From the NCBI GenBank assembly GCA_904418825.1, contig CAJFPU010000004.1, positions 1 to 45,529 on the forward strand: a stretch of DNA of 45,529 nt, given 5' to 3'. The notes beneath the pieces are model-generated. The model ran no database searches. It was not told where the DNA came from and saw only the letters and a program-made list of their open reading frames with translations. A program made the translations under genes and the position numbers. The stretch is from an uncultured Romboutsia sp. (GTDB taxonomy: Bacteria > Bacillota > Clostridia > Peptostreptococcales > Peptostreptococcaceae). This document shows, in pieces, positions 30,018-35,990 of the stretch (position 1 is its first letter; every line of letters starts with the position of its first letter).

Positions 30018-30224
30018 TAGATTAGAAAAAGATTTAATAAATAGTATGTTAATTAAATTAATCTAGTAATTGGATTAGTAGATATTAAAATTTTAAAGTT
30101 ATATAATATGATATACATAGTATAATATGTACTGGGATCTGCTTCGCATAAATTAACCTTCGGTTATTCAGCCCCGGTATGGTGAAAACTTACACTTCGT
30201 AAAAACTAAGACATACAAGGTGAT

Positions 30225-30284
30225 GCTACATTTTAGCTCATATTACATAGGAAAAATTGACTATGATATGAGCTAAAATGTAGC
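30225..30284. repeat. Hairpin repeat copy 2
   Basis: GCTACATTTTAGCTCATATTACATAG...CTATGATATGAGCTAAAATGTAGC. Confidence 0.85.
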
Positions 30285-30589
30285 TTTATTTGTGTGCTAA
30301 CTATTTACTACATTTCAGCTTTCACCATACTCCCACCGCGCTCTCTGCTCCCCCACCTCCTATCCCTTATATATTAATTAGGGAATTAAAAAATACATTG
30401 AATGAGTTATTATATATAGTATTAATTTATGCTCTTCAATGGTTTTAATTTAGTATCTTCTATTAATTGACAGTTAAATAACAAGATGCTACCATTTATG
30501 ATGATAAAGAATATAATTGTACTTGTATCATTAGAATTAGTACTAAGATATTAACTTGAGTATTAATTTTAACCTAAAATCTTTGATAT

Positions 30590-30791
30590 GAAAGGATGTG
30601 ATGAACGGAAATCCCGATTATTCGGGCTAAACAGAGGGGGAGCGCCCTGTGTTTTGTAAATAACAGCGATGGGAAGCCGTGTTCCGGCGTGAGAGGAAGC
30701 CATTAAGCTTCGACCGATTTTCCATAGAATCTTTATGATTCTATTATGTTATGGAGAACGTTGCTGTTATTGCCGTTCTCACAGATTTTTT
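30590..30791 (+). promoter_or_regulatory. Structured leader with terminator upstream of thiW (candidate riboswitch)
   Basis: Series of GC-rich stems then terminator GAGAACG...CGTTCTC + T-run (30754-30790); AATAACAGC (30659-30667) complements GCTGTTATT (30763-30771) in the terminator loop. Confidence 0.65.
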
Positions 30792-30808
30792 GAAAAGGGG
30801 TTTTAGAG

Positions 30809-31327
30809 ATGAATAATAAAACAAAGAAGTTATGTATTGCGAGTATTTTATGTACTGTAGCTATTATTGGGAGTATGTTTTCAATTCCTGTATTTGGTAG
30901 TAAATGTTCTCCAATTCAGCATATGGTAAATATTCTTTGTGCAGTAGCACTAGGACCATGGTATGGTATTGGAGTAGCTTTTACAGCAAGTTTAATACGT
31001 AATATTTTGGGAATAGGAAGTATAATGGCTTTTCCAGGAAGTATGTTTGGTGCATTATTTTGTGGAATTGCATATTGGAAATATAAAAGCATAACTGTTA
31101 CTTTAATTGCTGAAGTTTTAGCAACCTCTATATTAGGAGGATTTAGTGCTTATCCTATTGCAACTTTGATAATGGGTGTTGATGCAGGAAGTATTGCGTA
31201 TTATGGATATATTTTGCCATTTTTTATTTCAACTTTAGGTGGAGCAATTCTATCAGCATTTATTGTTATAAATTTAGAAAAAGCTGGTGGATTGAGTATA
31301 TTTAAAGAATATAGAGAAGTAAAATAA
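30809..31327 (+). CDS. thiW: ThiW-family ECF transporter S component
   Basis: Membrane protein KLCIASILCTVAIIGSMFSIPVFGSKCSPIQHMVNILCAVALGPWYGIGVAF...; adjacent to thiamin genes. Confidence 0.9.
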   Translation: MNNKTKKLCIASILCTVAIIGSMFSIPVFGSKCSPIQHMVNILCAVALGPWYGIGVAFTASLIRNILGIGSIMAFPGSMFGALFCGIAYWKYKSITVTLIAEVLATSILGGFSAYPIATLIMGVDAGSIAYYGYILPFFISTLGGAILSAFIVINLEKAGGLSIFKEYREVK

Positions 31328-31397
31328 GTAATTTAGAAAAAAATAATAATTGACTTTAGAATAAAATCTACTATAATTAAATTAAAAATAAATAATT

Positions 31398-31482
31398 AAT
31401 GCTAGGGGTGCCATTGGCTGAGAGGTTATAAACCGACCCTTATTACCTGATCTGGTTAGTACCAGCGTAGGAAAGCAACAAT
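31398..31482 (+). promoter_or_regulatory. TPP riboswitch (THI element)
   Basis: GGGGTGCC...GGCTGAGA...GACCCTTATTACCTGATCTGGTTAGTACCAGCGTAGGAAAGC. Confidence 0.97.
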
Positions 31483-31540
31483 AAATATTAATATAATAAT
31501 CTAAGTAATAAAAAGATAATTATAATAAATGTAAATTTGG

Positions 31541-33910: not shown

Positions 33911-34542
33911 TGATAAATAAAGAGAAATTAAAGAAAGACCTTAAACTATACTTAGTTACAGATTCAGAAATATTAAAAGATAGAGACTTTTATAAATGTA
34001 TAGAAGATGCCATAAAAAGTGGAGTTACTATGGTACAACTTAGAGAGAAAAATACAGATGGTAAAGAGTTTTTAGAAAAGGCAATAAAACTTAGAGAACT
34101 TACTAATAAGTATAATGTTACATTTGTAATTAATGATAGAATAGATATAGCAATGCTTGTAGATGCAGATGGAGTTCATATAGGACAAAGTGATATAGAT
34201 GCAGTTTCTGCAAGAAAGTTACTTGGAGATAATAAAATTATAGGAGTTTCAGCTAGAAACTTACAAGAAGCTAAGATAGCTAAAGAAAATGGTGCAGATT
34301 ACTTAGGTATTGGAGCGATGTTTTCAACTTCAACTAAAAGTGATGCAAAGTTAGTTTCTTTTAATACATTAGAAGAAATTATAAAAGAAGTAAATTTACC
34401 TTTTGTATTAATTGGAGGTATAACTTTAGATAATGTTAAAAAATTAAAACACTTTAAACCTGATGGATATGCTTTAGTATCAGGTATTTTAGGCACAGAT
34501 GATATAAGTAAACGAGTTGAGAAATGGTATGAAAGAATTTAA
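33910..34542 (+). CDS. thiE: Thiamine phosphate synthase
   Basis: LVTDSEIL...GVTMVQLREKNTDGKEFLEKA...VDADGVHIGQSDI...GADYLGIGAMFSTSTKSDA. Confidence 0.95.
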   Translation: MINKEKLKKDLKLYLVTDSEILKDRDFYKCIEDAIKSGVTMVQLREKNTDGKEFLEKAIKLRELTNKYNVTFVINDRIDIAMLVDADGVHIGQSDIDAVSARKLLGDNKIIGVSARNLQEAKIAKENGADYLGIGAMFSTSTKSDAKLVSFNTLEEIIKEVNLPFVLIGGITLDNVKKLKHFKPDGYALVSGILGTDDISKRVEKWYERI

Positions 34543-35170
34543 AGGAGCAATATTTGATTTAGATGGAACTATTATAGATTCTATGGATGTTTGGGAAACT
34601 ATAGATATTAAGTTTTTTGAAAAAAGAAATATTACTATGCCCAATGATTATATAGAAAAAATAAATTCTATGAGTTTTGAAGAAGTGGCTAAATACACAA
34701 TAGAAAGATTTAATTTAAATGAAAGTGTTGATAGTTTAATAAAAGAATGGAATGACATGGCAATTTATGAATATAGCAATAATATTAAATTAAAGCCTAA
34801 TGTAAAAGAGTATTTAGTTAAACTTAAAAAACATGATATAAAGATAGGCTTAGCTACATCTTCACCAAAAGAACTTTATGAACCAGTACTTAAAAATAAT
34901 AAAGTATATGATTATTTTGATACATTCACATCAGTAGATGATGTTAAAAGAGATAAAAACTATCCAGATATATATTTATATACAGCTAAGAAACTAGGTT
35001 TATATCCAAATGAGTGTATTATATTTGAAGATATACTAATAGCTATAAATACGGCTAAAGAATCTAACTTTAAGGCAATTGGTGTTTATGATAAATCATC
35101 ATATAATGATTTAGATAAAATAAAAGTTAAGAGTGATAAGTTTATATATGATTTTAAAGAATTATTATAG
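34529..35170 (+). CDS. HAD-family phosphatase (candidate thiamin monophosphate phosphatase)
   Basis: GAIFDLDGTIIDSM...LATSSPKE...IIFEDILIAI; overlaps thiE end. Confidence 0.88.
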   Translation: MKEFKGAIFDLDGTIIDSMDVWETIDIKFFEKRNITMPNDYIEKINSMSFEEVAKYTIERFNLNESVDSLIKEWNDMAIYEYSNNIKLKPNVKEYLVKLKKHDIKIGLATSSPKELYEPVLKNNKVYDYFDTFTSVDDVKRDKNYPDIYLYTAKKLGLYPNECIIFEDILIAINTAKESNFKAIGVYDKSSYNDLDKIKVKSDKFIYDFKELL

Positions 35171-35424: not shown

Positions 35425-35990
35425 ATGGAGTTTGGCTTCGCCACCGCGCTTTACGTTCCAATCTTTTGAGTAAAAACCACTCAAAGTAGTTCGCCCACAC
35501 GTGGCTCAAAAGGATTTCCACTACAATCCCTAACTCAAAACCATGTTTATATATTTTGTTGAGTTATAAACCTTGATGTGGATTTTAAATATGGAGCGTA
35601 GAGTAGATATAAGTTAAGGCCTTCGGCCGTGCCCCTCTGACTAATCCCAAAAGCACTCACACTATTCGCTACTAACATACTTCGCAAACATCATATTTCA
35701 TATCAAGTTTGCTACGTATCTTAGCCGCTCATTTGTGCTCGTAGCTTCTTTGGAATAGCCATTCACTGCCCTAAGCCCAATGCCCAGTTTCTAGGTTTTA
35801 TTGGGTGCATGAACCTTACTTAATTTATTAAGCCTCCACATTTTCTATAAAATACATATCAATAATTTATAGTGCAAGTCTCCTACTATACATATGAGTC
35901 TATTTACCTGGTGTCGGCAATGTATCTTATTGTTTGGTATACCGCATTGGATAAAATCGTTGCTCCGCTATCCAATGCTGGTGTATATAT
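35425..35990. ncRNA. Candidate long structured non-coding RNA (strand uncertain, minus favoured)
   Basis: ~560 nt noncoding island clearly richer in G/C than flanks, several stems including GCATTGGATA...TATCCAATGC (35944-35978), GGCCTTCGGCC and TTTGAGT...ACTCAAA. Confidence 0.45.

Follow-up and report, generated by a model that had tools for sequence, protein, structure and literature searches.

A conserved leader RNA of thiW, probably descended from one half of the TPP riboswitch, as a candidate sensor of HMP-bearing compounds

The window, the whole stretch of 45,529 nt analysed here from an uncultured Romboutsia sp., carries a structured leader of about 185 nt (30598-30782) upstream of thiW, a gene identified by both Pfam and NCBIfam; after thiW come a TPP riboswitch of its own and the genes thiD, thiM, tenA and thiE (Table 1). 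The original prediction had described an unassigned structured leader of thiW, with a control separate from that of the downstream thi genes. This was supported: the leader is specific to thiW and distinct from the TPP riboswitch at 31394-31490 ahead of thiD-thiM-tenA-thiE. The four stems that it named lay where it had placed them (CCCGATTATTCGGG, 30613-30626; ACAGAGGGGGAGCGCCCTGT, 30631-30650; GCCGTGTTCCGGC, 30676-30688; GAAGCCATTAAGCTTC, 30696-30711), and the exact complementarity that it noticed between AATAACAGC (30659-30667) and GCTGTTATT (30763-30771) was borne out. These stems and the long-range complement were conserved, with covariation. The 207-nt leader folded at -73.4 kcal/mol compared with -53.5 ± 4.4 kcal/mol for shuffled sequences (z -4.55), and 0 of 200 shuffles equalled it. 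The proposed search of Rfam 15 with covariance models gave the leader no family match at gathering thresholds; at E-values up to 10, only rli62 and STnc410 appeared (E 0.9-2.2), both by chance, and RF00059 produced zero TPP matches within 30400-30900. The whole window yielded two Rfam matches only, namely the TPP riboswitch (31394-31490) and, on the minus strand, a Flavo-1 RNA of borderline score (35438-35539; 43.6 bits against a cut-off of 42), which, in a Clostridia genome, may be spurious. The stems, the complement and the unassigned status of the leader in the original prediction stood, its terminator did not, and its statement that the TPP core motifs were lacking proved half wrong. The supposed terminator, GAGAACG..CGTTCTC at 30754-30780 (hairpin D in Table 1), is followed by ACAGA before the T run, and the T run is missing after hairpin D in most homologs. 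An intrinsic terminator was rejected, because the terminator scan called none and the feature was not conserved.

Table 1. Position and basis of the features of the thiW leader and its surroundings in the window
Feature	Position	Strand	Basis
Possible sigma-70 promoter (TTGACA, 17 nt, TACCAT, extended TG)	30467..30495	+	Predicted by consensus scan, 10/12; number of such sites near chance
P0 5' strand GUGAUGAACGG, partner 30773-30782	30598..30608	+	In the MFE structure; swap test
Hairpin 0 (CCCGA-UUAU-UCGGG)	30613..30626	+	Fold; hairpin at the equivalent place in many members
Hairpin A, hexaloop GGAGCG (30639-30644), not in TPP riboswitches	30631..30652	+	Covariation in 100 members
P1 5' strand AAUAACAGC	30659..30667	+	Covariation with the 3' strand
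GAU joint and P2 5' strand GGG (TPP G17-G19 equivalents), then AA	30668..30675	+	Alignment; numbering of PMC3764141
P3 hairpin, 4 bp, conserved UGUUY loop	30676..30688	+	Covariation in 100 members
J3-2 UGAGAG, equivalent of the TPP pyrimidine-binding T-loop U39-A43	30690..30695	+	100/100 members; TPP alignment
P3a-like hairpin (GAAGC-CAUUAA-GCUUC)	30696..30711	+	Covariation in 100 members
GACCG, P2 3' strand (TPP A47-C48-C49 equivalents)	30712..30716	+	Near-invariant in 100 members
Variable hairpin X, between P2 and the P1 3' strand, at the place of TPP P4/P5	30721..30755	+	Fold; differs or missing in other members
Hairpin D (GAGAACG..CGUUCUC), alternative to P0; loop contains the P1 3' strand	30754..30780	+	Swap test
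P1 3' strand GCUGUUAUU	30763..30771	+	Swap test
P0 3' strand, overlaps the hairpin D 3' arm	30773..30782	+	Fold; swap test
Putative thiW ribosome-binding site AAAAGGGG	30793..30800	+	Sequence; 8 nt before ATG
thiW, ECF S component ThiW (thiamin-precursor transporter)	30809..31327	+	Pfam PF09512, 148.8 bits; NCBIfam TIGR02359, 132.6 bits (cut-off 84.35)
Ordinary TPP riboswitch, before thiD-thiM-tenA-thiE	31394..31490	+	Rfam RF00059, 74.4 bits

When 199 related genomes were searched with blastn, nine of them, from seven genera, had the leader, each copy preceding thiW or, at L005, thiM. The leader of L002 (genome G016, another genus) is 98% identical and also accompanied by thiW; such identity across genera suggests a recent transfer. 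The covariance model R1, built from nine motif sequences only, was searched over 392 genomes of the class and matched 20 of them at 65-111 bits, the matches below these members scoring 25-47 bits. A model built from 100 members left a gap in scores too (94-108 against 20-39 bits). Furthermore, an exact 30-nt core pattern (P2-P3-J3-2), whose chance expectation in the window is zero, was searched in the GTDB species-representative genomes and occurred in at least 120 contigs, and 80 of these loci were retrieved. With at least 120 contigs from the exact pattern alone, the class is not rare. The hosts among the matches listed were mostly Oscillospiraceae, Lachnospiraceae and Ruminococcus-type Clostridia, together with Faecalibacterium, Veillonella, Erysipelotrichia (Floccifex and Faecalibacillus) and Fructobacillus.

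In the alignment of nine sequences, 96.7% of the cells were paired and 10 of 17 pairs had two-sided changes; in that of 100 members, the values rose to 98.2% and 15 of 17, with 383 two-sided cells compared with 103 in shuffles, and the signal was lost when the partners were slid. Among the 100 members, 73 were picked by an exact pattern including GCGANGGGAA, GTGTT and GTGAGAG, so that the selection itself imposes part of the invariance at these places; variation was free in hairpin A, three P3 pairs, the P3a hairpin and GACCG. Two-sided changes occurred in all eight pairs of hairpin A (96.4% of cells paired), in three of the four P3 pairs (100%) and in four of the five pairs of the P3a hairpin (99.8%). 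The GAGC of the hairpin A loop was present in 99-100% of the members, and in GACCG, outside the search pattern, the A, both Cs and the last G were invariant while the first G was found in 99. J3-2 UGAGAG occurred in 100 of 100 members, 73 of which had been selected by a pattern that contains it. We judge the thiW leader to be almost certainly a conserved cis-regulatory RNA. A kissing contact between the loops of hairpin A (GGAGC) and P3 (GUUYC), which are complementary in most members, was left as an idea, because both loops are nearly invariant and the exceptions, L004 (GUUGC) and L026, L027 and L113 (CGAGC), lack compensation.

The long-range complement of the original prediction corresponds to a closing helix, P1. 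Its strands covary among members (CAGAAAAAAGC/GCTTTTTTCTG in L117, GTGAAAACAGC/GCTGTTTTCAC in L111, GACGCAGC/GCTGCGTC in L080 and AACTAAATAGC/GCTATTTAGTT in L007), and the mean helix score was 15.8 compared with 12.5 ± 0.30 when partners were swapped between members, though the 3' strand was not recognisable in some of them, for example L005, L006, L077 and L109. Hairpin D, formed by the bases that flank the P1 3' strand, had a z of 10 in the swap test on the 51 members with a clear P1. Its 3' arm may also pair with the far 5' end as the outer helix P0, for which support was moderate (z 4.0 compared with 2.0 for an arbitrary region pair as negative control). Because one arm is common to both, P0 and hairpin D are mutually exclusive, and in the window the most favourable structure containing hairpin D was 13 kcal/mol poorer than the one with P0 and P1. 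P1 and hairpin D are possibly exclusive alternatives, or may coexist as a loop pseudoknot. The mutually exclusive pairing of the original prediction was right in spirit, its complement being the closing helix and hairpin D the alternative. The expression platform varies between lineages.

The first gene downstream of the motif was thiW in 91 of the 100 members and thiM in five, and was unreadable in four. In the 392-genome census, where thiW occurred in 80 genomes, 19 of the 20 copies lay directly before thiW (Fisher p 2e-13) and the twentieth before thiM. A TPP riboswitch was present within about 400 nt upstream in 36 of the 49 member leaders scanned with Rfam, some of which had two, while the window copy, with no TPP riboswitch upstream, stands alone. 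Apparent TPP-TPP-motif triple leaders were observed at L049 and L070 (confirmed by Rfam) and at L060, L100, L105, L107 and L118 (model hits); at L076, a TPP-like sequence lies between the motif and thiW, in addition to a TPP-like match upstream, and at L114 the motif and thiW are separated by a gene for a Thiamine_BP protein (PF01910). The presence of thiC without thiG was rejected as a pointer to the ligand: it was enriched among genomes with the motif (9/20 compared with 52/372, p 0.001), and the enrichment was gone among thiW genomes (9/19 compared with 31/61). Among thiW genomes, carrying the motif made no difference to the presence of thiC or thiG, so that host gene content is no guide to the ligand.

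The lower-scoring R1 matches pointed to the origin of the motif. All 30 that were checked were TPP riboswitches: nine of the ten at L031-L040 by Rfam and the tenth, L039, by eye, and 20 of 20 further matches, down to an E-value of about 0.01, by Rfam. The TPP riboswitch at L039 (1501-1640) precedes a thiS-like ORF, has GCGGAGAGG instead of GCUGAGAGG in J3-2 and gave no Rfam match at gathering. The block common to the motif and the TPP riboswitch (RF00059) comprises the P2 GGG, P3, J3-2 (UGAGAGG), the P3a hairpin and GACC, with the same order, sequence and structure. The TPP aptamer holds the pyrimidine through the T-loop U39-A43 of J3-2, A41 on G18-C48 and a triple of G19, G42 and A47, and pyrophosphate and metal binding fall to U59, G60, C77, G78 and A80 in P4/P5 (PMC3764141). 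The pyrimidine-sensor feature (UGAGA and GGG..GACC, with the equivalents of G18-C48, G19 and A47) was present in 100 of 100 members. The pyrophosphate arm was missing: beyond GACCG the members run into P1 or into a hairpin that varies, and CUGAUC..CCAGCGNAGGG is not there. The claim that the leader lacks TPP core motifs thus held for the P4/P5 half and failed for the other, in which GGG, UGAGAG and GACC stand at the TPP positions. As this half is homologous to the TPP pyrimidine-sensor domain, the leader is not unrelated to TPP riboswitches and very probably shares ancestry with half of one.

The motif and the TPP riboswitch also have in common the thi genes downstream, the hosts and, often, a single leader. 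Unlike the TPP riboswitch, the motif has no P4/P5 arm and no Rfam match, carries on its 5' side an additional hairpin A, whose GGAGCG loop is near-invariant, has a P3 fixed at 4 bp with a UGUUY loop and A-G/G-A instead of the G21-C38 pair, and precedes only thiW or thiM. Neither the window leader nor the motif at 48 other member loci reached the RF00059 gathering score of 54.3 bits. Because the P4/P5 arm is missing and this threshold was not reached, the motif was classed as a TPP-derived variant rather than a TPP riboswitch. A circular permutation of the TPP aptamer, with AGCGAUGGGAA as the TPP 3' end, was rejected, because the AGC strand pairs with the downstream P1 strand and no upstream partner for P4/P5 was seen.

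We propose the following mechanism. As a cis-regulatory element, the leader very probably goes back to half of a TPP riboswitch: it has kept the pyrimidine-sensor domain (P2 GGG/ACC, P3, the J3-2 UGAGA T-loop and the P3a hairpin), lost the P4/P5 arm and gained the 5' hairpin with the GGAGCG loop. Its ligand would carry the HMP pyrimidine, with HMP-PP as the first choice, followed by HMP-P or HMP and, last, thiamin. Ligand binding would favour P2/P1 and the outer helix P0 at the expense of hairpin D and thereby set the expression of thiW or thiM, whose products take up and phosphorylate HET, the thiazole half. In most hosts the switch would act as a second input after a TPP riboswitch, and in the window as the sole control of thiW. 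Taken jointly, the kept pyrimidine pocket, the lost pyrophosphate arm, the control of the genes for HET uptake and phosphorylation and the location in tandem behind TPP riboswitches speak for a sensor of an HMP-bearing compound, and we give a probability of roughly 0.6 to the motif being a riboswitch for such a ligand that controls thiazole salvage, where we infer both the ligand and the direction of switching. HMP-PP was placed first because the thiS motif, which occupies the same niche, is an HMP-PP ON riboswitch (PMC6478431); with that motif as a guide, HMP-PP would turn expression on. HMP-PP in particular is nevertheless a tentative assignment; the probabilities given here were judged rather than computed. 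We hold at about even odds the fuller proposal of an undescribed riboswitch class, common in gut Bacillota, in which the retained pocket and the new hairpin, standing in for the pyrophosphate arm, would sense HMP-PP (or HMP-P/HMP). Such a class would weigh the salvage of thiazole against the supply of pyrimidine, mostly as the second input downstream of a TPP riboswitch.

The genes under control, for HET uptake and phosphorylation, would suit a riboswitch for the thiazole side, sensing HET or HET-P, the direct substrate or product of ThiW and ThiM, with the TPP-like half as a scaffold and the new, highly conserved hairpin A possibly making a new pocket. However, the TPP positions that hold the HMP ring are retained, and a thiazole sensor would not need them, which makes this reading rather unlikely. 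Tandems of the TPP-motif and TPP-TPP-motif types are common, tandem TPP riboswitches are known on thi operons (PMC12452182), and the AGCGAUGGGAA that precedes P3 looks similar to AGCGUAGGGAA, with which the TPP riboswitch ends 3'; the motif might thus be a rearranged second TPP aptamer that still senses TPP or thiamin. Against this, P4/P5 with the pyrophosphate- and metal-binding U59, G60, C77, G78 and A80 (PMC3764141) is missing, the TPP model found no match at E-values up to 10, and AGCG lies in or beside P1 and is paired elsewhere, so that we consider it unlikely.

The readings without a ligand fared worse. A protein-bound leader, or a purely structural or RNA-stability element, would agree with the variable expression platforms and with the conserved GGAGCG hairpin loop, which can be a protein site, but it accounts poorly for descent from an aptamer with the ligand-contacting residues kept, for alternative helices and for an association exclusive to one metabolic step, and we regard it as very unlikely. 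That the motif stands next to TPP riboswitches that are intact and has only half of the aptamer might suggest a decayed, functionless TPP riboswitch, an explanation hardly credible in view of the strong covariation and the near-invariant positions over several classes, which include an element foreign to TPP riboswitches. The sensor of an HMP-bearing compound remains our preferred reading, and the description of the leader as a candidate riboswitch for a thiamin-related ligand was supported.

The thiS motif, the HMP-PP riboswitch (PMC6478431, PMC6429828), is associated with HET-related genes, thiW among them, and often lies directly downstream of a TPP riboswitch. The present motif shares this association. 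By its description, the thiS motif is a small aptamer within a terminator stem, whereas the present motif is about 185 nt long, TPP-like and without a clear intrinsic terminator; no terminator was found at 30754-30780, and the conserved core is located 40-110 nt ahead of hairpin D. Variant classes with a changed ligand are known, for spermidine from a SAM aptamer (PMC10853860) and among guanine-class variants (PMC9295807). In the proposal made here, too, the scaffold of an established aptamer would serve for another, related ligand; unlike those variants, which are described as close to their parent, the motif has lost and replaced half of it. In the open-licence literature we found neither an RNA motif of thiW or thiM of this kind, nor a riboswitch for HET, nor a second class for HMP-PP. 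The RNA switch candidate is real and widespread, and apparently undescribed. If the proposal is true, a two-armed aptamer lost one arm, kept the pocket for half of its ligand and became a precursor sensor, providing a second RNA solution to the task of the terminator-embedded HMP-PP riboswitch. This would explain the control of uptake of the thiazole half of vitamin B1 in many gut Bacillota, as well as two-input logic in single leaders, and may let bacteria sense one B1 building block before deciding to fetch the other.

Some minor features were observed around the leader. A long AT-rich inverted repeat (GCTACATTTTAGCTCATAT..ATATGAGCTAAAATGTAGC) lies upstream of it at 30220-30286 of the window, and an ORF for a HAD-like hydrolase, a family assigned by eye only, follows the thi genes in several motif operons (34517-35170 in the window, and L005, L092 and L119). 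On the 5' side of the motif, at 30590-30602, the window has GAAAGGATGTGA, an RBS-like sequence followed by an AUG-UGA start-stop. For the possible start-stop upstream ORF AAAGGATGTGA, GGATGTGA occurred upstream of the motif in only 7 of 100 members, and AAAGGA was found within 50 nt upstream of the motif in 41 of 100 members, compared with 1.6 in shuffles.
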